From positions 1-21,582 of the IMG/VR virus record IMGVR_UViG_3300042477_000141: a stretch of DNA of 21,582 nt. One strand, given 5' to 3'. The first letter of the stretch is position 1. Each line of letters opens with the position of its first letter. This document shows positions 4,887 through 21,509 of this stretch, in pieces. Both the position numbers and the translations under genes were made by a program. The DNA comes from a virus. A model generated the notes under the pieces. The model did not search any database and had not been told where the DNA came from. It was given only the letters and a program-made list of their open reading frames with translations.

Positions 4887-4960
<74 letters not shown>

Positions 4961-4980
4961 CTAACCTTAATTTATACAAC

Positions 4981-5214
4981 ATGATAGATAGACAATTAAT
5001 CAAATCTGTTCTTGGATTTAATTTTAAAACAATTGTAACCGATCAGAAAAATCAGGTTATTAAGTTCGGAATTGCGAGAACAATAAGTCCATTGGTCAAT
5101 GAACGACCAGTGTATAAGAATAGGATAATAGACAAAAAATTTTGGACAAACTACAACGAAAATTTGTTGAACAAAATTCTAGACTACAGAAGAAACAACA
5201 TTGATTACAGTTAG
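4981..5214 (+). CDS. Hypothetical protein (77 aa)
   Basis: The first gene after the tRNA starts at ATG 4981 (MIDRQLIKSVLGFNFKTIVTDQKNQVIKFGIAR) and ends with TAG at 5212-5214. It is a basic protein with no signal peptide, membrane segment or recognisable motif. The first half looks alpha-beta-beta and the second half helical (KKFWTNYNENLLNKILDYRRNN). I do not recognise a family. It is followed by an 85-nt leader with a terminator-like hairpin, so it probably closes its transcription unit. Confidence 0.55.
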   Translation: MIDRQLIKSVLGFNFKTIVTDQKNQVIKFGIARTISPLVNERPVYKNRIIDKKFWTNYNENLLNKILDYRRNNIDYS

Positions 5215-5228
5215 GGTTCTGTGGTTAG

Positions 5229-5283
5229 CCTCCATACGGGTAAAAACTCTACGCACACTGGTATGGCAGGTGTGTGTTTTTAA
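5229..5283 (+). promoter_or_regulatory. Structured leader: intrinsic terminator with competing or pseudoknot pairing
   Basis: Hairpin B: 5251-5260 (ACGCACACTG) pairs with 5267-5277 (CAGGTGTGTGT) over 10 bp with one G-U and one bulged G. It closes a 6-nt loop GTATGG (5261-5266) and is followed by T5 (5277-5281), giving a normal intrinsic terminator. Hairpin A: upstream CCTCCATAC (5229-5237) pairs with GTATGGCAGG (5261-5270) over 9 bp with one bulged C. So the terminator loop is complementary to an upstream strand. A and B are either mutually exclusive, as in an attenuator, or coexist as an H-type pseudoknot. The element lies 17 nt before the replication module. Confidence 0.6.
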
Positions 5284-5299
5284 ATCTAAAATCAATATT

Positions 5300-5515
5300 A
5301 TGAAATGGGAATCAACGTCAACTGCCGACATTGTTGTCGATAGTGTAGTAGAGAGTGTTATCTCTAAGATTAGGTCAAGATCTTTAGTTGGAATAAAGAA
5401 GTACAACACAACCATGGACAGAAATGATTTATCAACTATCCAGTGGCTTAACCATCTACAGGAAGAATTAATGGATGCTATAATATATGTAGAAAAATTA
5501 AAAGGTGAAATATGA
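5300..5515 (+). CDS. Small MazG-like (all-alpha NTP pyrophosphohydrolase-like) phage protein
   Basis: I choose ATG 5300 over an upstream in-frame start at 5201 because the extension is encoded by the structured leader. The 71-aa product has an amphipathic start (ADIVVDSVVESVISKI), then GIKKYNTTMDRNDLSTIQWLNHLQEELMDAIIYVEKLKGEI. The block 'G..KYG.T..R.DL....WL.H..EELMDA..Y.EKL' is common in small phage proteins. Its E55-E56...D59 helix resembles half of the metal site of MazG/dUTPase-like pyrophosphohydrolases, which clean or adjust nucleotide pools during phage replication. Activity is inferred. It overlaps the primase start by 4 nt (ATGA), so it leads the replication operon. Confidence 0.65.
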   Translation: MKWESTSTADIVVDSVVESVISKIRSRSLVGIKKYNTTMDRNDLSTIQWLNHLQEELMDAIIYVEKLKGEI

Positions 5516-7866
5516 TAACCTACTTTAAATCAATCAATGAAACAGATAAGCCATTCTATGTTGATGTTGATGTTGCCATTGAAAGGATAAAATTCGGCAA
5601 GTCAAAAGATATAGTAAAAAAGATTCGTTCTGCTGAAACAAAGGAAGAACGAAACAACATAAAGAAACAGCTACCATCAATACTATTTTCTGGTGAGTTC
5701 TCAAGGAGGGCTGACAATGCTATCATAAATCATAGCGGACTGATATGTATAGACTTTGATGGGTTCAAAGACGATGATGAGCTACAGGAGATGAGAATGC
5801 ACTTGTTTAACGATAAGTACACGTACTGCCTATTCATATCTCCGTCTGGAGATGGTCTCAAGTTATTGGTAAGAATTCCAAGCGATGCATCAAACCACAA
5901 GAAGTATTTTTTAGCACTTGAGAAGTACTATAACTGCCCACAGTTTGACAAGTCATGCAAGAATATATCTCGTGTATGTTACGAGAGCTTTGACCCTGAC
6001 ATATATGTAAACGAGCTGTCTGAGGTATGGTCTGAGATGGTTAACACAAATGATAACATCAAGCCTCCACCTATGATACGAATCAGTGACTCAAACGAAG
6101 TTATAAAAAGGCTTTGTATGTGGTGGGAGAAGAAGCATGGTATGGTTGTAGGATACAGGAACAACAATCTATTTATCTTAGCATCAGCACTCAATCAATA
6201 CGGAATCAATAAAGATGAGGCTCTAAATGTGTTGTTGTCATACGATGACGGGTCAATGGCTTCTGAGATGAAGACGATAGTATGGTCTGCATACAAGAAC
6301 GTATCTGACCATGGCACTAAGTTCTACGAGGATATTGACAAGACTATATCTATAAAGAACGATATCAAGAAAGGTGTTCCAATAAGAGACATAAAGAACT
6401 ACTACTCAGACATTGACGAGAACGCAATAAACGACATGGTTGAGACGCAGGAGTACAACACGTTTTGGTCTAAGAGTAGCAAAGGAAAGATAGACCTTAT
6501 ACCACACTTATTCAGAGACTATTTAAAAGGTAATGGGTTTTATAAGTACTATCCCAACGGATCAAACAACTTTGTGTTTGTAAGGATAATCGACAATATA
6601 ATCAGTGACACAAATGAGGACATGATAAAGGACTTTGTGTTGGAGTATCTCATGCATGTAGATGACATGAGCGTTTATAATTTCTTTGCAATGAATACGA
6701 AGTTCTTCCAGGAGTCATTCCTAAACTATGTAGCAAAGATTGACCCCGTATTTATGGTTGATACCATTAATGAGTCTTACCTGTATTACAAGAATTGTGC
6801 TGTAAAGGTAACGTCAGACAGCATCGACATGATTGATTACAGAGACCTTGGTGGATACGTTTGGGAGAAGCAGAAGATTGACAGAGACTTTAGAGTCACA
6901 AAGTTTGATGATTGTGAGTTTAAGAGATTCGTATCAAACATAAGCGGAAATAATTCGGGAAGGATAAAATCAATGGAGTCAACGATTGGTTTTTTGTTGC
7001 ACAGCTACAAACCAGCGAGCTATTGTCCTGCCGTTATTTTAAACGATGAGGTCATTAGTGACAACCCAGAGGGAGGCACTGGAAAGGGTATATTCGTTAA
7101 GTCTATATCATACATAAAGAAGATGGTTATCATTGATGGTAAGGGATTCAGTTTTCAGAAATCTTTTCCGTACCAACGTGTACAGGTAGATACACAAACG
7201 CTAGTGTTTGATGACGTTGCCAAGAACTTTGACTTCGAGAGGTTGTTTAGCGTAATTACTGAAGGAATAACATTGGAGAAGAAAAATAAAGATGAAATAC
7301 ATATATCATTTGAGAACTCTCCAAAGATTGTTATAACCACCAACTACGCAATCAAGGGTGCAGGTAATAGTTTTGAGAGAAGAAAGTGGGACCTTGAGTT
7401 CAAGCAGTACTACTCCAAGATGTTTACTCCAGAGACAGAGTTTGGTCACATGTTGTTTGTCGGATGGGACCGAGATGAGTGGTCTAGGTTTGACAACTAT
7501 ATGATATCAAATCTACAGAACTATCTTTCAATGGGTCTTGTAAAGTGTGACTTTATGAACCTCAAGACACGTAAGTTCATTGCTGAGACATCTACTGAGT
7601 TTTGGGAGTGGGCCACATCAAGTGACAATGACTTCATGAAGATTAACGTTGCTGTTCCAGGAATGTCCATGTACAACAGATTCGTTGAAGAGTTCCCAGA
7701 CTATGGAACGTATGGTAGATGGAAGTTATCACACAACAGGTTCTACAGATGGCTTGATTCTTTGGGAGAGTTTAAATACAAGAGCAGACCTAAGATATAC
7801 AGAGGAGCCATGGGCAAGATGGTAGAATTTATAACAGAAGAAAAGAAACCCGATTTATTATTTTAA
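5512..7866 (+). CDS. Primase-helicase: VirE-N/primase domain fused to SF3-like helicase
   Basis: The 784-aa protein has two enzymatic parts. Residues about 15-170 look like the BT4734-like/VirE-N primase family: Asp81-Phe-Asp83 in LICIDFDGF is the metal-binding DxD, followed by SPSGDGLKLLVRI (110-122) and NISRVCYESFDPDIY (151-165). A helical PriCT-like linker follows (about 200-270). Residues about 500-680 are a DUF5906/D5-like helicase: Walker A PEGGTGKG (519-526), Walker B LVFDDV (564-569), sensor KIVITTNY (605-612) and a likely arginine finger in RRKWDLEF. It would make RNA or DNA primers and unwind the fork. It starts in the stop of the MazG-like gene and ends 2 nt before the next. All key residues are present, so it should be active. 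Confidence 0.88.
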   Translation: MITYFKSINETDKPFYVDVDVAIERIKFGKSKDIVKKIRSAETKEERNNIKKQLPSILFSGEFSRRADNAIINHSGLICIDFDGFKDDDELQEMRMHLFNDKYTYCLFISPSGDGLKLLVRIPSDASNHKKYFLALEKYYNCPQFDKSCKNISRVCYESFDPDIYVNELSEVWSEMVNTNDNIKPPPMIRISDSNEVIKRLCMWWEKKHGMVVGYRNNNLFILASALNQYGINKDEALNVLLSYDDGSMASEMKTIVWSAYKNVSDHGTKFYEDIDKTISIKNDIKKGVPIRDIKNYYSDIDENAINDMVETQEYNTFWSKSSKGKIDLIPHLFRDYLKGNGFYKYYPNGSNNFVFVRIIDNIISDTNEDMIKDFVLEYLMHVDDMSVYNFFAMNTKFFQESFLNYVAKIDPVFMVDTINESYLYYKNCAVKVTSDSIDMIDYRDLGGYVWEKQKIDRDFRVTKFDDCEFKRFVSNISGNNSGRIKSMESTIGFLLHSYKPASYCPAVILNDEVISDNPEGGTGKGIFVKSISYIKKMVIIDGKGFSFQKSFPYQRVQVDTQTLVFDDVAKNFDFERLFSVITEGITLEKKNKDEIHISFENSPKIVITTNYAIKGAGNSFERRKWDLEFKQYYSKMFTPETEFGHMLFVGWDRDEWSRFDNYMISNLQNYLSMGLVKCDFMNLKTRKFIAETSTEFWEWATSSDNDFMKINVAVPGMSMYNRFVEEFPDYGTYGRWKLSHNRFYRWLDSLGEFKYKSRPKIYRGAMGKMVEFITEEKKPDLLF

Positions 7867-7868
7867 TT

Positions 7869-8162
7869 ATGAGTGAAATCTGCAAATCAATTTTAGAAGA
7901 AAAGATAGTGTTCTTTGAGATAGTCCTAAAGATCACTAAAAAAGATGACAAGGCTTACGGGCAAATACTTGACAAGATGCAAGACCTACACAACACCATA
8001 CTATTCATTGATGGTGTTATTGACAAGTTTAGTTACAAGACTGACGTGGCGGTGGAGCTGCTAGAGTTCCAGAAATATAAAAAGAGTATGATTACGTTTT
8101 ATAAGGATGATGTTGATGAGATGACCGAGTGCATCAAAAACATATGTGATGCAACTGCGTGA
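7869..8162 (+). CDS. Hypothetical helical protein between primase and helicase (97 aa)
   Basis: ATG 7869 is 2 nt after the primase-helicase stop. The product is almost wholly helical with heptad-like spacing (ILEEKIVFFEIVLKITKK, YGQILDKMQDLHNTILFIDGVID, KKSMITFYKDDVDEMTECIKNICD). It has no membrane segment or recognised motif and carries three Cys. Its end overlaps the helicase ATG at 8149 by 14 nt. Its place between two replication enzymes suggests a small accessory or loading protein; that is inference from position only. Confidence 0.6.
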   Translation: MSEICKSILEEKIVFFEIVLKITKKDDKAYGQILDKMQDLHNTILFIDGVIDKFSYKTDVAVELLEFQKYKKSMITFYKDDVDEMTECIKNICDATA

Positions 8163-9384
8163 TTATCAGATAGATATATCTTCAAGGGGTGCACAGATAC
8201 TTAAGGATAACTACATACTTTGTTTAGCTATGGAGGTTAGGCTAGGTAAAACGTTTACATCCCTTGAGATATGTCGCAAGCTTGGTTATGAGTCAATACT
8301 ATTTTTAACTAAGAAAAAGGCAATATCTTCCATAGAGTCTGATGCCCAAAAGATAGTGCCAAACTCTGACATTGTTATAATTAACTACGAGAGCATACAC
8401 AAGGTCAATCGAAGTAACTTTGATGTAATAATATGTGACGAGTCACACACCATGAGCGCATTCCCCAAGCCCAGCTTAAGAACAAAGCAGGTTAGGAATC
8501 TAGTTGTAAAGTGTGGCATGCCAAGGGTTATACTATTAAGTGGAACAATAACTCCAGAGTCTTACTCTCAGATATACCATCAGTTCTGGGTGCACCCTAT
8601 TAATCCATTTAACGGGTTTACAAACTTCTACAGGTGGGCAGATGTTTATGTCAACAAGTTCCAGAAGAAGATAAATGGTTTGATGGTAAATGACTATTCT
8701 TATGGCAAGGAGAGAGAGATAATGTCCGTTGTGTCTCCATATATAATAACATACACACAGAAAGAGGCTGGGTTCTCAACAGAGATTGAGGAGGAAATAC
8801 TAACTGTGGAGATGCCTGATATAATAAAAAAGATAAGCGACAAACTTGAGAAAGACCTAGTGGTTGAGGGCAACAATGATGTAATACTAGCAGATACTCC
8901 TGCCAAGTTAATGCAGAAGATGCACCAGCTAGCAGGTGGAACGATAAAGTTTGAGAGTGGTCGATCTATGGTTTTGTCAACCTTTAAGGCTGAATTCTTG
9001 AAGTCGCAATTTGCGACCACAAAAATAGGGGTGTTCTATAAGTTCAAGGAGGAGCTAAATGCACTAAAGCAGGTATACGGAGATGACATGACCACAGAAT
9101 TGGATGAGTTTAACACTGGTAATTTTAAGGTTATTGCCTTACAAATCGTATCTGGTCGTGAGGGTATAAGCTTAAAAAATGCTGACTACCTAGTTTTTTA
9201 TAGCATTGACTTTAGTGCCGTTAGCTACTGGCAAGCTAGGGATAGGATGACAACTATGGACAGGCTTTACAATAAAGTTTACTGGATTTTTACAGAGGGT
9301 AGCATAGAGGAGAAGATATACAAGGCAGTTAAATCAAAAAAGAGTTACACGTTAAATATATTTAAGAAAGATTATGGAAGATAA
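8149..9384 (+). CDS. SF2 helicase/ATPase, SNF2-like
   Basis: The frame also has a GTG at 8146, but ATG 8149 (MQLRDYQIDIS, the usual 'L..YQ' Q-motif start) is preferred. Motif I is EVRLGKT (29-35), a phage variant of GxGKT with Arg for the first Gly. Motif II is DESH (97-100), motif III LLSGT (129-133). Motif V lies in IALQIVSGREGISLKNAD and motif VI is QARDRM (362-367). At 411 aa it is a minimal two-RecA-lobe enzyme without extra domains. Such phage SNF2-like proteins are typical of replication modules and probably remodel forks or strip proteins. In motif VI the second Arg of the QxxxRxxR pattern is Thr369. It overlaps the preceding gene by 14 nt and the next by 11 nt. Confidence 0.85.
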   Translation: MQLRDYQIDISSRGAQILKDNYILCLAMEVRLGKTFTSLEICRKLGYESILFLTKKKAISSIESDAQKIVPNSDIVIINYESIHKVNRSNFDVIICDESHTMSAFPKPSLRTKQVRNLVVKCGMPRVILLSGTITPESYSQIYHQFWVHPINPFNGFTNFYRWADVYVNKFQKKINGLMVNDYSYGKEREIMSVVSPYIITYTQKEAGFSTEIEEEILTVEMPDIIKKISDKLEKDLVVEGNNDVILADTPAKLMQKMHQLAGGTIKFESGRSMVLSTFKAEFLKSQFATTKIGVFYKFKEELNALKQVYGDDMTTELDEFNTGNFKVIALQIVSGREGISLKNADYLVFYSIDFSAVSYWQARDRMTTMDRLYNKVYWIFTEGSIEEKIYKAVKSKKSYTLNIFKKDYGR

Positions 9385-10670: not shown

Positions 10671-11742
10671 GTCTGGAGTAACCAACAAGACAGAGATAGC
10701 CAGAAGGATTTTGGGTAGTGGTGATGAGAACTCAAGGGCAGTAGTGAAGAGGGCTATAAGGAGATATGAGAAAAATAGGGCCTTATATGATGAGTGTGAA
10801 AGAGTAGGTATAGATTCTGACAAAGTAAAAAACTATTGGTACAAAGGAAAGCACTATAGCATCAACGTTAATGGTGACACTGAAGAGTTTAACTTTGATG
10901 ATTTTAAGACTGAACTCATATCTGAGATAAAAAAATGGTCACCTAACTATAGCTCAATAAAAAGAGAAAAGAGTAAGGACCCACACTGTCTAGTTTTTGA
11001 CCCAGCAGACATACATATTGGTAAGCTGTCATCATCATTCGAAACGGGAGAAGATTATAATCAACAGATAGCTGTTAACAGAGTTATGGATGGTCTTCAT
11101 GGTATAATTGGAAGAACGTCAGGTTACAACATAGATAAGATAATATTCATTGCAGGAAACGACATACTCCACATAGACAATCCAAAAAGACAAACAACCG
11201 CAGGAACTCCACAGGATACTGACGGCATGTGGTATGACAACTTTATAATGGCTAAAAAGCTCTTAGTAAATGTCATCGAAACACTCATGTCAGTTGCTGA
11301 CGTTCATGTTGTATACAATCCAAGTAATCATGATTTTATGTCTGGATTTATGTTGTTGCAGTGTGTAGAGGCATGGTTCAATAATTGTAATAATGTAACG
11401 TTTGACAATGACATGAAGCACAGGAAGTATACTGTGTATGGAAAAAATTTAATAGGATCAACTCACATGGACGGGGCTAGGGTAGAAAATCTTCCATTAC
11501 TTATGGCACACGAGGCAAGCGATAAGTGGCACAACTGTAAGTACAGATATATTTATGGTCACCACATACATCACAAATCATCGAAAGACTACATGTCTGT
11601 CAATGTAGAGACATTAAGATCTCCTTCAGCTGCTGATAGTTGGCACCACAGAAATGGGTACCAGTATTCTCCAAAGGCAGTTGAGGGGTTTATACATCAC
11701 CCAGAGAATGGTCAAGTTGCTAGGTTAACTCATTTGTTTTAA
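10621..11742 (+). CDS. HTH domain fused to calcineurin-like metallophosphoesterase
   Basis: The 373-aa protein has an N-terminal HTH-like part (residues about 8-50: ILDLYKSGVTNKTEIARRIL...AVVKRAIRRYE). A metallophosphoesterase core follows with all family motifs: DIH (130-132), GND (179-181), SNHD (235-238), a His in GSTHMDG (near 282) and GHHIH (313-317). In phages such proteins resemble SbcD/Mre11-type nucleases. A DNA phosphodiesterase guided by the HTH is the likely activity, though the natural substrate is not known. Asn for Asp in GND is seen in this phage group. It is the last plus-strand gene, and its TAA (11740-11742) overlaps the stop of the giant minus-strand gene. Confidence 0.82.
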   Translation: MLRRATEHFNKILDLYKSGVTNKTEIARRILGSGDENSRAVVKRAIRRYEKNRALYDECERVGIDSDKVKNYWYKGKHYSINVNGDTEEFNFDDFKTELISEIKKWSPNYSSIKREKSKDPHCLVFDPADIHIGKLSSSFETGEDYNQQIAVNRVMDGLHGIIGRTSGYNIDKIIFIAGNDILHIDNPKRQTTAGTPQDTDGMWYDNFIMAKKLLVNVIETLMSVADVHVVYNPSNHDFMSGFMLLQCVEAWFNNCNNVTFDNDMKHRKYTVYGKNLIGSTHMDGARVENLPLLMAHEASDKWHNCKYRYIYGHHIHHKSSKDYMSVNVETLRSPSAADSWHHRNGYQYSPKAVEGFIHHPENGQVARLTHLF

Positions 11743-14700
11743 AGAGGAGGAGGAACAAAGTTTTTAATTGCTTTTTGTTGCTCCATTTCTAGTTGTTTTA
11801 ATTTTTTATCTTCCTCTTCTTGCTTTTTAATGGCTTCTTTTCTTATTTTTAAACTATAGTTTAGCAAGTCTTCGTATTTTTTACCAGACTTAATCATTTT
11901 ATAGTATTGATTCCAGTCATAACTTTCAGTTATTTTCCCTAAAGCTTTTACAAATTCTTTTCCTTCTTTGTTTGTAAAACCACCTAAATCTTTTATGTAA
12001 TCAACTACCTCCGTAATGCTTTTCTTAGATTGTTCGGTAGGAAGGAAATTAATATTTTCTCTAATTAACATACTCTCCCATGCTTGTGGTTCTCTGTTAT
12101 ATCTTTTCTTAAATTCTTTGTAAACTCCATACTGCTCATACGTGTATGAATTTTTTTCAATCTTTTTGTAAATCTTATTTGATATTTGAGAACCTTCTTT
12201 AAATGATCCACCAATTATTGCTGGCAAATCTCCCATAAAGTATGTTAACTTTACTAAATTTTTATCTTGATCGCCAAGATATTTTTTTGTTGTGTTTCCA
12301 AACTGATCAGTTTCTAAATACTCTCCAGTTGTAGCCATATCATATCTATCTACGAATCTTTTCCACTGATCATATCCTACTGAGAATAATCCGTATCTTC
12401 CTGATTCTTTAGCTCCTGGATAGTCATTTCCTAATTTATATGAATTATCTCTTAAATATTTTTCTCTAAACTTCCTTTCCTCTTCTGGATTCATTTTAAA
12501 CTTTAAAGCAACATTACCTGTATAATTTAAAGCTCTTCTTTCATTTTCTTTATTTACGGCATCATTAACTTCTTTTTCCGTTGGAGATACTAAATCTTTT
12601 ATGAAAGGTGTGTCATCAGAAAACATATCAAACACATTAACTAAAATTTCATCTACAATTGGAGCAGGAGATACTAAGTCTCCTATCAATGATTTTATAG
12701 GAAACTTTGATGCATCTTTCATTCTCTTTTTTCTTTCTTCTTCATTTTCATCGTCATCATCTCCATATATTAGACTTGCTATCGTACCTAGTAAAAATAG
12801 TCTAGTCATATTTAGACCATGAAAAACAGCCTGTTCAGAAAGTGTACCAGCTAGTGATTTTCCAGCTATAGTTCTGTCTTCAGAAGATACTTGTTTCCAG
12901 TTGTATATTGTAGCTATATCGGTAGCAATTTTAGCTCTTGAATTTATACTAAAAGAAGCGTAAGGAAACAATGTCTTTCTAATTATTTTCATTACTTCAT
13001 CTTGGGATGAAAGTAATTCACCAGCCAATCTTTCGTCAGACACGTTTTGATTTCTATTAACCATATTGTCTGCATATAGTATGGCTTCTTTATTTATATT
13101 TTCTAATCCATTGTCTTTTATTTCTTGATTCCAAGTATCCCAGTTTATTTTTGAGCTATCAACATTATTCATTTCTAGATACTGTTTATAGTAAGAAAGA
13201 AATGCACCACGGGCCACCCATATATCTGGCTTGGATAGTAAATATTTTAGTTTTAAATTAAAAAATTTAGATATCCCATCTGATATTTTATCAGTATAAT
13301 TTTCAAATGTTTTTATTTTACTATCAGCAGACTCAATAGCTGTTACGGCTTCCTGACCTCTATTAGAAACAGCGGCCCCAGACTTATTAATCCATTGTTG
13401 AAATGCACTTCCAGTTCTAAATAAATCTATAAAACTAGTTGGTCCTGCCTGTAATGCTGTGTTTGTAATAACTGGAATTGTTTGCATTATTGGCTGAAAA
13501 ACACTTCCTAACCCAAGACTATATCCTATTTTACCTAAAAAGTTTAAACCAATCTTTTTTTGTATATCTCTTAGTACTTTTTGATATTGTTTGTTGCTTA
13601 TTACAGATCTATTTTTAATAGAAGCAATGTATTTAGATACCTTTCCTTTGATTATTTCTAAATCTCCAGGGTCTGTTATGACTTTAGATAGATAATTAGA
13701 GTTCATAAATGCGTCAACCCTTCTAACGGCAGCAGCTGTCTCTATATCTACCAATGCGCCTTCCATTGCTGAGAAGTTATTCATCTCAAAGCTAAGGTCT
13801 ATATATCTTCCTTGACCTTCTATTGTTGATACACTTGGTTTAGTGTTTGGCATCAAAACTCCAGTCTCTGTTTTGTTTATTAGAGTATCAGAGTTCATCA
13901 TATATGATGACCTTGTAGTAGGTATTTCTTCAGCACCTGTTATAGAGCTAGACATTTCAGTTTTCCTGTACCTATCTGTAGTATAGTTTAGATCTCTTGA
14001 TAACATTGTGTTATACACTGACAGTGAAACAAAAGACAGGTCTCCATATATATTTGCCCACTTGTCAATCATCCATACAACAGCCTCTCTGTTCATTAGT
14101 TTTGAATTATTATATATAGTTTCAATGTCAAAGCTATTTATATTCAATCTATCTGCAACCTTTTGATATGTTTTTGCTAGTTTTTGCTCTTCTTTTGTTC
14201 CCTTTTTAAGTGTTTCAATGGCTGAGTTTATCATATCAACCCTTCTATTTAGTTCTGATTGAATGTTTTCTTGCTTGTCATATCTTGCCAAGAATGCAAC
14301 CATTCCTCTTTCTATTGTGTTGTCTATATTCCAGAAGTTCTTTTGCTTTCCAAATTTTTCTGCGTATTCATTTTCTAGAGCATTTTTTGTATTTCTTGCC
14401 TTGTTTGCGCCTAGTATTACTTTACCAAACCCAGCTCTGTCCATTACCTTAGTCCCTGCCACTACACCATTAAAAACTAAGTTAAACATCTCTGGAGCCG
14501 TAACTAATGCTATTGATCTTAGATTACCTGCAATTTTACTAAAAAAGTATTTTATTGGTCTTGATTTTTTACCTGATTCGTATAGTGATTTAGCCTGGTT
14601 ATTACCTTCTATTACCTCAAGGACTGAATCAAGACCACCAACAGCAAAGTTGACCAAAAAGTTGTCAAGCATCTCCACTAGTTTTGCCTTGTCTTTTATA

Positions 14701-17700
14701 GACATTCCATCTATATTAGCTTTCTGTATCCTACTTATTATTCCATTAGGGTCAGTTACACCCATATCGGATATTTCTTGAACCTTGTCGTTAAACATTG
14801 AATCCAACAAGTTATTTACATCATCTTCGTTATATCCTTCAACAAGCTCGTCTTGCTTTATCTTATTAATTATATCTTGCATTTCTTTGTATGTCATATC
14901 TCCAGATATAACACCTTGGTCTACGAGATCTTTATAAGAGTTCATCATTGCATTCTTCATTAACTTTTCTTGCTCTGAAAGCATGTAGTCAATCTTGTTG
15001 TTTAATGATGTAAATTCAGCAGGTACTTTTAATTTTGGCTCACCTTTAACTATTCTTGATGGAGCGATTGATGCCATTATTTCATATGCCATTGCGTTGT
15101 ATCCATCAATATCATCTACCATAGATGGGTCAATCCCAAGGAATCTTTTAGCAAGAACTTTGTTTTCTGCTTGTGCATTTTTTAAATTCCTTCTTATCTG
15201 TCTTTTAGTTTTTTCAGCTTTGTTTACTTTTTCAGCATAGTCTGCTCTCTGTGCAACCCTTTCAACGTAGTTTATAAACTGATCAATCTTTCCAGGATTA
15301 AGCAGGTTTAATGTGTTTGATCTGTTTAATATTGCTCTTGCTTGTGCTAGTGATATCTTTCCTTTGTATTGTCTTAGTATTTCTTTTACTGACTCATTAA
15401 CTGATTTTCTTGAGTCGTATATTGCTTTCTTGGCCTCTCTAGCTATCCTTGCTGCATCTCTAAGTTGATCTCTTAGTGCCTTTCCTAAATCACTTACAGA
15501 GAAAGTAGCAGGTTGAGGCTTCTTACCAAGTACCTTTTCTACAGATGGAGCAGACTTTAATTTTTCTCCGAAGAACTTCTTTAGTTCTCTTTCTGCATTT
15601 TCTCTTTGAGTATCGTCAGATGATTTATACCAGTCTGACTTTCTTAAATCATTTAGAGCGGCATCTACACCTTGTTGATGTGGGTTTCGTCTTCTAGTTA
15701 CAGACAAATCATACTTGGCCTTTGCATCATCTATTGCATTCTGCCTAGTATTTTCTTTCTGGAATTTTATACCTACTCCTTTTATTTCATCACTAGTTAT
15801 TTCTTCTCCTTTTAATAAAGATTTTAAAGCTCCATCTACAAAATCATTTAGTGTTATGTTTTGAAATTCTTCTGGTGATAATTCATCAAATGACTTAAAT
15901 TTTGATTTTACATAATTAAATAAAGCATTTAGCCAATTTTTAAATTTAGATTTTTTCCCTGCTTCAATTATAGTTTCTCCTCTGTTAGCTATTAATTCAG
16001 CCATTGCCTCTTCCCTAGCTAATTCATTGTCTCCAAATTCTTTTATTTTTTCTTTTAATATAGATGTTCCTTCTAAAAGACTATATCCTTTTTTTAGTAA
16101 TTCTGGATTATTTTTCTTTAAAAATCCCATCCAAACATGAGAAAATTCATGAATTGCAGTATTAGTATTTGCTTTTTCTGGATTTAAAAATATTTTACCA
16201 TCTTTAGTAAATCCATAAATTACATCACCATCTTTTACGAATTTCTTTACATTTTCATCTTCAAGAGCTTTTTGAAACTCTTCTTGAGTATCTACTATTA
16301 CTACACTAGGAAAAGCAAGTTTTAATTTTCCAAGTAATTTTTGTAATTCAGTAATCTTTGTAGATAACTTAGATCCTCTAAATGCCTTTGTTGTTGCAAC
16401 AGCACCGCTAGATGCCACTGTCTGACTAATTACCTGTCCTACTGATGGTAATTTACCTGATTTATTTTCTTTGTTTAAATAAAAAGATTTACTGTACATT
16501 TCAGGAAATACATCAGCCGCATGAACTGGAGATTCAATAATTCCAATCAATCCCCCTTTAACACCATATGGATAATTTGCATGGTTTGGTTTTGTTATTT
16601 CTGGATTTAATACATCAACGCCAACTAATCCAATAACATGATTGGGGGGTATTGTTTTTGTTGATTCATCTTGTATAGAATTATTTATAGTGTTTAAATG
16701 TATGTATTTATAATATGAAGAATCTTTATTACCAATCAAAGCTAATCCAGCATTGCTTTTTGGCTTACCTGCTTTAACTTGTTTATTTAATTCTACTGAC
16801 CCAGTAAATAAAAATCTAGTTATAATAGCTCTTTCTCCTAGTTTTAATTTATTTACATTGTCAAGAAGTTCATCAATTGTTTTAAAATTATTTTCTTTTA
16901 TGAAATTAATTACTTTACTATTAGGATCAACAGATTCAATATCTTTTATTAAACCATTTAAAGAATTTGTACGTTCTGTTTTATTGAATTTTTTCTTTAT
17001 TGTATCTGAAGCAAATCTAAATAACGCCTCATTTGTTTGTATAGATTCTTGACCCATTTTAATAACTGCCATTGGTACTTGACCTTTTGGCAATTTACCT
17101 TCTCTCCAAAGCCTATCAAATAAATCTTTATTGTTGTTATATAATTCTTGTGCTCTAGAAAGCATTTTGTTTGCCTCGGATTCTGTAGTATTTGCCCAAG
17201 CATTATTTTCATTACCCTCTGTTAGATTAAAATTTATGCCCCCATTTATATCTATTGTTGAACCAGTAAATTCATTTTTTACTTTACCAGCACCTAATTG
17301 ATCTGATATAGTAAATATCATTGGTATTCCGCTATAGTCAGAAATATTTTTTATAATACCACCCTTCCATGCTTTTTTTAATTTATCAGAAAACCTTGAT
17401 ATTATTGATTTAATATTATTTTTGTTTTTGGTTGTTAAACCTGAAGGCACATCAAAATTTGCAATTTCATCTGGCATTTGATTCATTTCCTCTTTTATGC
17501 CATCTATTTGTTGCTCAAACTCTTTTTCTGTTGTTGGCTCTTTTTGAAATTTAGGTATGTTATCAATTTCACCTTCTGTGGCAACTTGAGTAGGAGCAGA
17601 AGTCATTTCAATAGTTTGATTATTATCAAAATAATCATTCAATTCTTGCTGAGTAAATTCTGTTTTTACTTCTCCATCTATAATTGGTTTATAACCATCA

Positions 17701-20700
17701 GCAAATAATTCATCAGCTCTAGATTGTTTTACTTCAATGGATTTTTGTTGTAATGATTCTGGTTTAAAAACAACAATATTTTGTACACCTTCCTTTTCTA
17801 ATCCTGTAATATCTTCATCTCTAAATTGAACAGCATCAAAACCTTTTTCTTGAAGAGTATTTATCAAGTTGTTTTTTGCCTCATCACCAATATATGTATC
17901 TTCAAACCTGGGGTCTATTGCTTCATATAATCTAACTTCGTCTGATATTTCAACACCATTTTCTTTTAGAGTTTCTTTTACTGTTTGCTCATCAGCTATT
18001 TTAGATTTAGGTATTTCAAACTTAGTTACGTCACCTTTGTTTTCATTTGCGTATGCCCTAGCTTGATTAACATCTTCAGAAACATATAGATTACCTTCTT
18101 GTTGTGTTAAATCACCTCCATGATATACAGGTACTACTTCTTCTGCTTTGGTTTCGGCTGTGGCTTCACCTTCTTGGGTAACTTCTTGCCCTTGGACGAT
18201 TGGTTCCACTCCTCCACGTTCACCCCCTGTTTCTGTAACTCCTTCTTGTTGGCGTTGAAGTACGCCCTCTGTGCTTGGCTTTTGTACGGCATTTCCTATA
18301 GTTTTTATTTGTTCATCAATCTCTTTTATTCTAGCTTGCTGAGGCAAGGTAAGTAGTGGGTCCTTTCCTGATATTTCTTTACCAATAACCTCCTTCTCTG
18401 TCATCAAGTCCAAAACAACGGCCTTCTGATCTAAAGGCATATTGTCTGGCATTGAGTTTATTTTGGTCTTTACTTGTTTCCAGTTGTCAAGTATTTCTTG
18501 ACCCTGAGCTTTGGTATACTTACCATCAATTATCTCTGCCTTTATTTTTGATACAAGAAGTGGGTCAAAGTTTTCCATTCTTGCAGCAGCATCAATTTGT
18601 TCAAGCAGTTCTTTATTTTCAGATAACTTTATTTCTCTATTAATTATTTTTGATGATTGTGATGCTCCACTCATGACAGCCCCCCCAATTGCGCCTAACG
18701 CAAGTGTTTCTGTTGCTTCAGAAACATACTCCCAAGCTGTTTTGTCTTCAAAAAAGTCTTTTCCCTTTGCTTCATTGTATGCGTCATCTAAAAATTTTAT
18801 TGCTTCTAAAGCACCATATTGAATTAATTCAGTACCACCTTCTGATTTTGCAGATTGAATCATTGTAGGAACGGCCATCGCCATAAATGCTTTTGTTTCA
18901 GTGGCAATCACACCATCAATAAATTCTTTTGATGCGCCTTTAGGAATATTTTTAATGACATTTTTTACAACTAAATTCTTAGCATAGTCAGATGCTTGAC
19001 CCTTAAATACTGCATCAAGACCAATCTTTTCAAGAGCGGAACTAACTACTCCGTAGATACCAGACATTAGGAACTTCTCACTATCACTCATTCCAGGTAT
19101 TTGATCTAGCTGATCCTTCATTTCATAGTACCCAAGGCTATATAATGAAGTTAATCCACCAACAAGTCCACCAGTAGGTCCTCCAACTAGCGTTCCTATT
19201 GTTTGACCAGCAGTCATTGCTGCTACGGATTCAACAACACCAAATATGCTACGATAAAGCATATTTGCATCTTGCATGTACGCTTTTTTATTTGCGTCAC
19301 CTATTATTAATTTTATAGTTTCTTCTTGCTCCTTTTTAGATTGCCCAGATATTAATCTAACACCAGTAGCTATACCATTTAATGCTGAATATGTAAGTGC
19401 ACCTAAAAATGTACCCTGATTTTTTTCCCACTCTAAGTTTATTCCTACAGCCTTATCTATAACACCATTTAATGATTGAATTTGAGATTTACTTACATTT
19501 AATTCTTTCTGTTCTTGATCTAATGTTTTAGCTCTTTCTTCTAGCTGTTTAATATACTCTGGAGTAAACTTTGAATACCTAGATTCAATATCTGATATTA
19601 TTTTATTTCGTTGATTTTGATAGTACTCAAAACTTATTTCTCCTCTATTAACCTGGTCTTCTAAGCTATTTATACTTTTTTTTGCAGTTTCCAAAACACC
19701 AGCATAAGAGTTGTATTCATTTATTTCTTGTGAAAATGCTTTTTGTTTTTCATTAAATATTTTTATTTCTTCTGCGTTGGTATTTAATTGTCTATCTATA
19801 TCTTTAGTTAATTTTGGAGTATTGGGGGCTAAAAAAGCCACTCTATCTGGATTTTTTTCAGCTTCTACAGCTCTTATACCAATATCTTTTAAATATGTTT
19901 CTCTAGCCTTTTTACCTTCTGGTGTTTGAGATTCAAATTCTTCTTTTTCTTTTTGTTCAGAAGCAAACTCTTGCTGTTTTAACATAGTTGTTTGACCAGC
20001 TAATGTTTCTCCTAAATTTAATCTTCGTTGGTCTTCAAATGATAATTCATCTAATTCTTTTTGCTGTTTTTCTTTTTCAGATAATTTATTTTTAGCATCA
20101 ATCATATGATACTTATTATCCATCATCAAATCAATAGCATGCTGATCATTAGCTAGTAATAATGACTTTATTTTTTTATATAAATCAGGATCTTCTGCTA
20201 AAAATTGTTGTTGATCAATAATTTTTTCGCCTCTTTTAAAATTTACAAAAATTGTCTGATCAGTTATACCTGCGACATCAGTTATAGTTCCAACTACAGG
20301 TATGTTTCCAACAAGAGATTTGTCTGCTATTCCAAACGTGATACCGTACTTATTAAATCTATTATTTAATAATTCTAAATATGAACTAAATCTTTTTCCA
20401 TACCCAATAGACTCTCTTTCTTTTTTATCACCTACAGTATTAACATCATTTATATAAGAATTAAGAACTAAATTTTTATCTTCTATTATTTGCTTATTGT
20501 CCTTTGTTATATAATTTCCTTCTTTTTGATATGTATAATTTAATCCCTTTATTATTTTTTGATCTGTTACATATTCAAACTTTCCATTTTTATTTAATTT
20601 TTTCCATTGATTATTTTCAGTATCTAGTGTATATTGATTTCCATCTTGATCTGGAAACACCTCTGCTGTTTCACTAGTTGATGCAGATAAACCATTTTTA

Positions 20701-21509
20701 ATATTTAATTTAAAAACTGTTAATGGGTCTGTCTCTGTAATTGTTGTCCATATTGAAGTTCCTTGTGGTATAAACTCTCCAGTTGCCGCAGCAGGATTTG
20801 GTATCTTTTTTTCCCATACGTTTTTTTGCACATTGTATATATAGTCTCTTTTCCCAGACGCATATTCTTTTTCAAATTTTTGATTTTGTTTTTGAGTTTC
20901 ATAGTCTGGAGATGAACCATACCCAAATGTTTGACTTACTGGGACTTGTTGACCAGTTATAGGGTCATATATAGTTTGTTCTGCTGGAATATTTGGCGTA
21001 ATTGGTATGCCAGCTTCTAAAGACATAAGAGTTTGAAGTCCTTCTAATGCTTTTGGATCTTCTCTATAAATTCTACCAGCCCTTTTAAGTATATCTATGC
21101 TCTCTGGAGATAGTTTTTGAAATTTTTCAAATGCAAGTGGGTCATTCCAATCTATAATTGGATTAGACATTAAAATTAAAACAGGATCGACATTTTTTGT
21201 CTTCATTTCCTGTATTAATTTTTTTTGTAGTATATTTTCTGGTTTAACGGTAGTTTTATCTTTCTTTTTTTTTGGTTTTAAAAAGCTACCGCTTATTAAT
21301 TCCTCTTCAGTTATTTGATCTGTAGATTTTTCTTTTTTAATTCCTCCAGGAGGAATAGGAGATAATAATGGTCGTGCAGTAAAAGCAGAAATAGAAAAAG
21401 GATTTCTAGTTGTAGTAGTAGTTACTCTATCTGCATATACCTCTTCAGGAACAACCTCTTGGTCTATAGTCTCATCTATGGGCAGGTTTGTGTCTAGTTC
21501 TTCAGCCAT
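11739..21509 (-). CDS. Giant multidomain protein (3256 aa), large polyvalent-type virion protein
   Basis: One unbroken frame. In order: a low-complexity N-terminus (Thr run at 30-34, Pro and Lys); long charged coiled coils (about 455-690); a Gly-rich hydrophobic region (about 760-845) and another at 934-950; a Gln/Glu/Gly linker (about 1077-1126); an ADP-ribosyltransferase-like domain (about 1127-1255, starting VYHGG); a large alpha/beta region (about 1350-1710); a zincin domain with H1787-E-F-S-H1791 and a likely third ligand Glu1838 in AELIANR; helical LPD-like regions (1880-2900); a hydrophobic segment at 2903-2916 followed by DDDDENEEE; and a K/E-rich C-terminus ending FVPPPL. The mix of ART, peptidase and structural parts is typical of phage large polyvalent proteins, thought to be packaged and ejected with DNA. 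It lies 3 nt after another minus-strand gene. Virion location is inferred. Confidence 0.85.
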   Translation of the reverse strand: MAEELDTNLPIDETIDQEVVPEEVYADRVTTTTTRNPFSISAFTARPLLSPIPPGGIKKEKSTDQITEEELISGSFLKPKKKKDKTTVKPENILQKKLIQEMKTKNVDPVLILMSNPIIDWNDPLAFEKFQKLSPESIDILKRAGRIYREDPKALEGLQTLMSLEAGIPITPNIPAEQTIYDPITGQQVPVSQTFGYGSSPDYETQKQNQKFEKEYASGKRDYIYNVQKNVWEKKIPNPAAATGEFIPQGTSIWTTITETDPLTVFKLNIKNGLSASTSETAEVFPDQDGNQYTLDTENNQWKKLNKNGKFEYVTDQKIIKGLNYTYQKEGNYITKDNKQIIEDKNLVLNSYINDVNTVGDKKERESIGYGKRFSSYLELLNNRFNKYGITFGIADKSLVGNIPVVGTITDVAGITDQTIFVNFKRGEKIIDQQQFLAEDPDLYKKIKSLLLANDQHAIDLMMDNKYHMIDAKNKLSEKEKQQKELDELSFEDQRRLNLGETLAGQTTMLKQQEFASEQKEKEEFESQTPEGKKARETYLKDIGIRAVEAEKNPDRVAFLAPNTPKLTKDIDRQLNTNAEEIKIFNEKQKAFSQEINEYNSYAGVLETAKKSINSLEDQVNRGEISFEYYQNQRNKIISDIESRYSKFTPEYIKQLEERAKTLDQEQKELNVSKSQIQSLNGVIDKAVGINLEWEKNQGTFLGALTYSALNGIATGVRLISGQSKKEQEETIKLIIGDANKKAYMQDANMLYRSIFGVVESVAAMTAGQTIGTLVGGPTGGLVGGLTSLYSLGYYEMKDQLDQIPGMSDSEKFLMSGIYGVVSSALEKIGLDAVFKGQASDYAKNLVVKNVIKNIPKGASKEFIDGVIATETKAFMAMAVPTMIQSAKSEGGTELIQYGALEAIKFLDDAYNEAKGKDFFEDKTAWEYVSEATETLALGAIGGAVMSGASQSSKIINREIKLSENKELLEQIDAAARMENFDPLLVSKIKAEIIDGKYTKAQGQEILDNWKQVKTKINSMPDNMPLDQKAVVLDLMTEKEVIGKEISGKDPLLTLPQQARIKEIDEQIKTIGNAVQKPSTEGVLQRQQEGVTETGGERGGVEPIVQGQEVTQEGEATAETKAEEVVPVYHGGDLTQQEGNLYVSEDVNQARAYANENKGDVTKFEIPKSKIADEQTVKETLKENGVEISDEVRLYEAIDPRFEDTYIGDEAKNNLINTLQEKGFDAVQFRDEDITGLEKEGVQNIVVFKPESLQQKSIEVKQSRADELFADGYKPIIDGEVKTEFTQQELNDYFDNNQTIEMTSAPTQVATEGEIDNIPKFQKEPTTEKEFEQQIDGIKEEMNQMPDEIANFDVPSGLTTKNKNNIKSIISRFSDKLKKAWKGGIIKNISDYSGIPMIFTISDQLGAGKVKNEFTGSTIDINGGINFNLTEGNENNAWANTTESEANKMLSRAQELYNNNKDLFDRLWREGKLPKGQVPMAVIKMGQESIQTNEALFRFASDTIKKKFNKTERTNSLNGLIKDIESVDPNSKVINFIKENNFKTIDELLDNVNKLKLGERAIITRFLFTGSVELNKQVKAGKPKSNAGLALIGNKDSSYYKYIHLNTINNSIQDESTKTIPPNHVIGLVGVDVLNPEITKPNHANYPYGVKGGLIGIIESPVHAADVFPEMYSKSFYLNKENKSGKLPSVGQVISQTVASSGAVATTKAFRGSKLSTKITELQKLLGKLKLAFPSVVIVDTQEEFQKALEDENVKKFVKDGDVIYGFTKDGKIFLNPEKANTNTAIHEFSHVWMGFLKKNNPELLKKGYSLLEGTSILKEKIKEFGDNELAREEAMAELIANRGETIIEAGKKSKFKNWLNALFNYVKSKFKSFDELSPEEFQNITLNDFVDGALKSLLKGEEITSDEIKGVGIKFQKENTRQNAIDDAKAKYDLSVTRRRNPHQQGVDAALNDLRKSDWYKSSDDTQRENAERELKKFFGEKLKSAPSVEKVLGKKPQPATFSVSDLGKALRDQLRDAARIAREAKKAIYDSRKSVNESVKEILRQYKGKISLAQARAILNRSNTLNLLNPGKIDQFINYVERVAQRADYAEKVNKAEKTKRQIRRNLKNAQAENKVLAKRFLGIDPSMVDDIDGYNAMAYEIMASIAPSRIVKGEPKLKVPAEFTSLNNKIDYMLSEQEKLMKNAMMNSYKDLVDQGVISGDMTYKEMQDIINKIKQDELVEGYNEDDVNNLLDSMFNDKVQEISDMGVTDPNGIISRIQKANIDGMSIKDKAKLVEMLDNFLVNFAVGGLDSVLEVIEGNNQAKSLYESGKKSRPIKYFFSKIAGNLRSIALVTAPEMFNLVFNGVVAGTKVMDRAGFGKVILGANKARNTKNALENEYAEKFGKQKNFWNIDNTIERGMVAFLARYDKQENIQSELNRRVDMINSAIETLKKGTKEEQKLAKTYQKVADRLNINSFDIETIYNNSKLMNREAVVWMIDKWANIYGDLSFVSLSVYNTMLSRDLNYTTDRYRKTEMSSSITGAEEIPTTRSSYMMNSDTLINKTETGVLMPNTKPSVSTIEGQGRYIDLSFEMNNFSAMEGALVDIETAAAVRRVDAFMNSNYLSKVITDPGDLEIIKGKVSKYIASIKNRSVISNKQYQKVLRDIQKKIGLNFLGKIGYSLGLGSVFQPIMQTIPVITNTALQAGPTSFIDLFRTGSAFQQWINKSGAAVSNRGQEAVTAIESADSKIKTFENYTDKISDGISKFFNLKLKYLLSKPDIWVARGAFLSYYKQYLEMNNVDSSKINWDTWNQEIKDNGLENINKEAILYADNMVNRNQNVSDERLAGELLSSQDEVMKIIRKTLFPYASFSINSRAKIATDIATIYNWKQVSSEDRTIAGKSLAGTLSEQAVFHGLNMTRLFLLGTIASLIYGDDDDENEEERKKRMKDASKFPIKSLIGDLVSPAPIVDEILVNVFDMFSDDTPFIKDLVSPTEKEVNDAVNKENERRALNYTGNVALKFKMNPEEERKFREKYLRDNSYKLGNDYPGAKESGRYGLFSVGYDQWKRFVDRYDMATTGEYLETDQFGNTTKKYLGDQDKNLVKLTYFMGDLPAIIGGSFKEGSQISNKIYKKIEKNSYTYEQYGVYKEFKKRYNREPQAWESMLIRENINFLPTEQSKKSITEVVDYIKDLGGFTNKEGKEFVKALGKITESYDWNQYYKMIKSGKKYEDLLNYSLKIRKEAIKKQEEEDKKLKQLEMEQQKAIKNFVPPPL

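Follow-up and report, generated by a model that had tools for sequence, protein, structure and literature searches.

Comparison with related phages makes it nearly certain that positions 5207–5281 on the plus strand of the window (the whole stretch of viral DNA analysed here, 21,582 nt long) form a conserved structured RNA, previously undescribed, whose stems P1, P2 and P4 and two tertiary pairings, a pseudoknot and a loop-loop kiss, are kept together. Its structure and its cis position are established by this comparison. On balance, we favor the reading that the element is a cis-acting leader RNA of the replication operon which acts as a transcription attenuator. The element, 75–85 nt long across relatives, and the genes behind it are laid out in the window as follows:

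5207–5281, plus strand: whole structured leader RNA, scored at 88.9 bits by covariance model R1.
5207–5222, plus strand: P1 hairpin, ACAG (5207–5210) pairing with CTGT (5219–5222) around the loop TTAGGGTT; supported by compensatory branch events.
5213–5218, plus strand: 5′ strand of the H-type pseudoknot, AGGGTT, whose partner is 5245–5250; supported by compensatory branch events.
5223–5229, plus strand: GGTTARC motif between P1 and P2, conserved and mostly unpaired in the alignments; its final C is the first base of the P2 stem.
5229–5240, plus strand: P2 hairpin, CCT(CCATAC)GGG, with stem covariation among relatives (CTGA/TCAG, CCCA/TGGG, CCAA/TTGG, CCCT/AGGG).
5232–5237, plus strand: P2 loop CCATAC, which kisses 5261–5266; supported by compensatory branch events.
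5241–5246, plus strand: A-rich linker TAAAAA, of which columns 43–46 are invariant in alignment A1 and the last two A are also paired in the pseudoknot.
5245–5250, plus strand: 3′ strand of the H-type pseudoknot, AACTCT, directly adjoining the terminator hairpin; supported by covariation and the helix scan.
5251–5277, plus strand: P4, a terminator-like hairpin with a bulged G5270 and the 6-nt loop GTATGG (5261–5266); supported by compensatory branch events.
5277–5281, plus strand: U-tract, with at least five T among the first eight bases in 61 of 62 distinct relatives.
5300–5515, plus strand: first gene 3′ of the leader, 71 aa, start codon at 5300.
5512–7866, plus strand: primase (BT4734-like_N, DUF5906), a label supported by domain match.
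8146–9384, plus strand: SNF2/ResIII-type helicase, a label likewise supported.

The loop of P1 pairs with a strand 3′ of P1 (pairs 10–51 to 15–46 of alignment A1), giving an H-type pseudoknot with an L1 of 2–3 nt, no L2 and a long third loop that holds the hairpin P2. P2 and P4 have complementary 6-nt loops and both of their stems covary, as in a kissing-loop pair. P4 contains GC pairs and is followed directly by the U-tract, as in the sequence of an intrinsic terminator; because the T-run covers 5277–5281 and the hairpin 5251–5277, the first T of the run is able to pair with A5251. The preliminary description, which spanned 5229–5283 and thus only part of the element, had correctly drawn the 10-bp terminator hairpin with its T-run, in which the ten pairs are interrupted by one bulged G, and had recognized that the P4 loop is the perfect complement of CCATAC. 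It had also raised the possibility of an H-type pseudoknot, and one does exist, although it is a different one, between 5213–5218 and 5245–5250, which had been missed.

The relatives compared here are 80 loci in viral contigs, found by a search with the downstream primase and so chosen by protein rather than by RNA, and among these loci the region 5′ of the 71-aa gene is alignable. Covariance model R1, built from 34 distinct sequences, detects one copy in the window and one in each of 77 of the 80 loci, at E < 1e-10; it obtains no match in L055 (a fragment), L065 or L066. With filters off, a search found no member in MW202828, L065 or L066, and a copy was likewise absent from two phage records and from five viral records that are more distant. 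All 12 records of 50–64 kb that carry the element have exactly one copy, always before the primase operon. The invariance of AGTT and of GGTTARC is perhaps somewhat overstated in these data, since the pattern used to collect seed sequences fixed those letters. The carriers are uncultured aquatic phages that probably infect Flavobacteria and kin: named phages related to them by primase infect Bacteroidota where the host is known, and therefore the host phylum is probably Bacteroidota.

Searched against Rfam 15 (including preQ1, SAM-II and fluoride) at the gathering score, the window yields only the tRNA at 4887, and over 5207–5281 there are two chance-level matches up to E 10, far below the cut-offs. 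BLAST of the element against named phages and plasmids gave nothing relevant, and a pattern scan of bacterial genomes gave 11 matches, which the covariance model scored weakly (best E 0.011) and which we do not regard as members. No matching family is described in the open-licence papers that were searched. A leader with a terminator is of a known kind, but we could not match the kissing arrangement to any described family.

The structure is supported by covariation in every part. The 27 pairs of alignment A1 are 89% paired, a figure that falls to 78% when partners are shuffled and to no more than 53% when they are slid, and 125 cells are changed on both sides versus 36 in the control. Because there are too few sequences for an R-scape-like test over every pair of columns to reach single-pair significance (best E 0.2, none significant alone), events were counted on a tree, with substitutions reconstructed on it and reshuffled along the same branches in 1000 simulations. 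Against this tree-preserving null, the five helices together have 38.9 compensatory branch events, whereas the simulations average 1.5 and never exceed 7, and every one of the helices lies above all simulations (P1, 5 events versus 0.27 expected; pseudoknot, 7 versus 0.28; P2 stem, 3.1 versus 0.16; kissing helix, 6 versus 0.41; P4, 17.8 versus 0.43). The preliminary description had proposed as its own test that compensatory changes should preserve both pairings, that of the terminator stem and that of the loop, and this is borne out. A scan over all possible helices was clearly positive only for P1, the pseudoknot, the kiss and P4, and RNAalifold, a program unable to represent pseudoknots, selected the kissing helix unprompted. 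The single-sequence fold of the window is not unusual (z −1.0) and misses the tertiary pairs. Departures from Watson-Crick pairing within the structure comprise 48 G-U versus one A-C, and therefore the folding molecule is RNA of the plus strand; the same excess of G-U over A-C disfavors a structure of single-stranded DNA, such as an origin.

The 6-nt complementarity between the two loops is found in nearly all relatives with differing letters (CCATGC/GCATGG, CCATGT/ACATGG, CCATAA/TTATGG, ACATAC/GTATGT, CCACAT/GTGTGG and CTACAT/ATGTAG), which agrees with the earlier suggestion that this pairing is under selection rather than neutral; one or two pairs at the end of the kissing helix are lost in the variants CCATTT, CCATAT and CCACTT. 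For the window alone, the complementarity could be explained by chance, and it is the comparison that is decisive. A true 6-nt complement is present for 40 of the 283 terminator-like hairpins in the relatives' loci, while the mirror control, which gives the chance level, is matched by 15 (~5%). In nearly every clade the six-base complement consists of exactly the P2 loop and exactly the P4 loop, for example in ctga(CCATAC)tcag, ccca(ACATAC)tggg and ccaa(CCATAA)ttgg, where the flanking stem letters of P2 covary. The distances are also nearly fixed, at 8–10 nt from GGTTARC to the P2 loop, 29–32 nt from the P2 loop to the P4 loop and 15–19 nt from the P4 loop to the U-tract (the latter two in 61 of 62), as a rigid tertiary fold would require.

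The loop pairing had further been described as reaching 9 bp with one bulge and as possibly exchanging the terminator for an antiterminator. The longer pairing is indeed present in the window (CCT/AGG, with a bulged C5267), but it is not conserved, being largely confined to the window's own clade with a partial extension in the L019 clade, and the scan of all possible helices found no conserved helix that opens the terminator. Since CCATAC is the loop of a covarying P2, the extension is unconserved and no rival helix is present, the contact is best described as a loop-loop kiss compatible with the terminator, and the exchange finds no support.

Sister phages, whose primase is ~60% identical, have neither P1 nor the pseudoknot. 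Their loci carry a hairpin and a terminator with complementary loops (CTAGGA/TCCTAG, CTAGTC/GACTAG, CTAGTC/GGCTAG), mostly right after the ssb stop and ~20–25 nt before the next ATG:

L294:3334–3415, L299:3071–3152, L361, L366 and L380: sister-clade kissing terminators, at the same genomic site and ahead of the next small gene.

The recurrence of a kissing terminator at this site suggests that selection maintains the kiss of the terminator loop. In more distant relatives, the primase region is preceded by plain terminators, and these also lie close 5′ of a gene. Another, larger structured RNA was observed in elemo phages and their relatives, between a tRNA, which it follows directly, and the replication genes:

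L336:7551–7700 (Flavobacterium phage elemo, MT497078), L337:2250–2420, L341:1985–2200 and L343:2370–2520: larger elemo-type RNA.

This RNA has a long closing stem, GGCAGAAT/ATTCTGTC, TTTTCTTAT/ATAAGAAAA or TTAGTAGAC/GTCTACTAA, and two further covarying pairings, e.g., TATCGG/CCGATA and AGAGTGTT/AACACTCT; its L336 copy has no Rfam match. It contains GGTTAAC at the same syntenic spot and was considered as a distant member of the present family, but the motif is unconserved among elemo relatives and the fold is different. Elemo phages also have an 11-kb structural-protein gene at the position matching that of a 3256-aa ORF in the window (11739–21509, minus strand), which follows the replication genes and in which no Pfam domain was found.

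With regard to genomic context, the preliminary description had placed MazG-like, primase and helicase genes behind the leader. The latter two labels stand, whereas the 71-aa gene has no Pfam match (E 0.01) and no PDB-sequence support for MazG, and matches only PHROGs without assigned function. The first gene behind the leader varies among relatives (a protein of 71, 114–120 or 175–181 aa, or the primase), but the spacing is preserved, the U-tract starting 16–31 nt before the ATG in nearly all of them, and there is no room for a promoter in between. The element is preceded by the ssb stop codon, by the 3′ end of a tRNA or by some other small gene, and in several clades it comes directly after such a stop codon or tRNA end. 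The Bacteroidota-type promoter TAnnTTTG is usually absent within 700 nt 5′ of the RNA and inside it; with no consistent host-type promoter, the downstream genes would therefore be expressed by reading through the terminator or from a promoter at the element itself.

Several further observations concern the 5′ side. In several relatives (L004, L006, L008, L009, L044), a tRNA-Arg(TCT) or tRNA-Tyr ends 8–15 nt before the RNA, and tRNA processing could therefore set the RNA 5′ end; the tRNA of the window is at 4887–4961, and a 77-aa ORF lies between it and the RNA, with its stop codon inside the P1 loop. Of 51 distinct relatives, 34 have a TTCATRG-like motif ~5–20 nt 5′ of P1 despite differing upstream genes, and the motif is also found in L294 and L303. 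This region forms a tiny hairpin, GTTCA TGG TGAAC, in some clades, and may be a promoter, an extension of the RNA or a start signal. A leader peptide was considered and rejected, as the upstream ATG is ATA in many relatives and the frame that is open through the window RNA is closed in others.

The place of the element in the leader of the replication operon is attenuator geometry, as had been noted before, and it is this leader position, together with the U-tract and the absence of space for a promoter, that argues for attenuation. In the mechanism that we propose, RNA polymerase arriving from the upstream genes or tRNA would transcribe the leader RNA, the kiss and the pseudoknot would set how well the terminator forms and releases the polymerase, and the fraction of polymerase that reads through would express the primase and helicase genes. 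The element may be tuned by a ligand, a phage protein or temperature, or by nothing at all; it is plausible that a factor is bound, given the conserved GGTTARC, UU and AAAA bases. On the other hand, the short distance to the ATG could be explained by gene packing alone, since the simpler terminators of distant relatives also adjoin genes; the U-tract of one clade is the weaker TTTATT; and L065 and L066 are without the RNA. More specifically, the element may represent a class of regulated terminators, in which a pseudoknotted and possibly ligand- or protein-binding domain grips the terminator loop and times the replication genes, with at least two shapes at this site, although we propose this class only tentatively.

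Alternatively, the RNA may be a constitutive boundary, a stable knotted terminator that ends the exonuclease/SSB/tRNA transcript and guards its 3′ end, with a fixed fraction of read-through that would keep SSB abundant and primase scarce, and no regulation. Consistent with such a role, the RNA sits right behind the ssb stop or a tRNA 3′ end in several clades, and more distant relatives carry plain terminators ahead of the primase region. However, plain terminators in general serve this purpose without the conserved unpaired bases, the pseudoknot and the kiss, all of which are under selection here, and we therefore regard the constitutive boundary as rather unlikely.

A device like the put RNA of phage HK022, acting on RNA polymerase as nascent RNA, or a riboswitch whose pseudoknot reads a metabolite (e.g., a nucleotide), would account for the conserved unpaired GGTTARC, UU and AAAA around a small pseudoknot ahead of early replication genes. 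HK022 put, a phage leader RNA of ~70 nt ahead of early genes and thus of about the same length, consists of two stem-loops that act on the polymerase to suppress distant terminators (PMC9378689). As described, put is not itself a terminator, whereas the present element has its own terminator-like hairpin and a different architecture, and no riboswitch of Rfam matches it, which makes such a device improbable.

It is more doubtful still that the element is a free small RNA acting in trans, whose 3′ end would be the U-tract and whose 5′ end would come from a promoter or from tRNA processing. The compact 75–85-nt unit with its terminator and the tRNA 3′ ends just upstream in several genomes would suit such a molecule, as would a promoter of the phage's own inside or just before the RNA, of which the conserved TTCATRG could be the trace. 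However, the element is never found away from the operon start, its distance to the following start codon is maintained, and no conserved free seed is left because the P2 and P4 loops, which vary, are taken up in pairing with one another. Least credible, and largely refuted by the comparison already, is an exclusive switch in which CCATAC pairs with the terminator loop and its flanks to open the terminator, since the 9-bp extension that suggested it in the window's own clade is absent from most clades and the P2 stem, which such an extension would break up, is maintained by compensatory changes.

Structured RNAs of phages are poorly catalogued, and the attenuator that we favor resembles several known systems in part. 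Intrinsic terminators and leader attenuators likewise have a stable hairpin and a U-tract in a 5′ leader near the start codon, but here the terminator loop kisses an upstream hairpin, the terminator adjoins a pseudoknot and no antiterminator was found. Loop-loop helices between complementary hairpin loops are known from ColE1 RNA I/II and guanidine-II riboswitches, whereas in the present RNA one partner is a terminator loop and both lie in the same leader. The leader of T4 gene 32 contains a pseudoknot through which SSB autoregulates translation; it is similar in being the leader of a phage replication gene, and different in that here ssb lies upstream of the element and a terminator is present. 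The preQ1-I riboswitches (PMC11625349) share a small H-type pseudoknot whose third loop is A-rich and which lies just ahead of a terminator or start site. Unlike them, the present RNA lacks an L2, carries an entire hairpin in its third loop, kisses the terminator and has no Rfam match, and no queuosine genes were identified among the neighbors examined.

The element thus constitutes a compact and well-supported RNA family without an Rfam match, carried on many environmental phage contigs whose hosts are probably Bacteroidota, and it suggests that intrinsic terminators may be controlled by clamping the loop instead of melting the stem.
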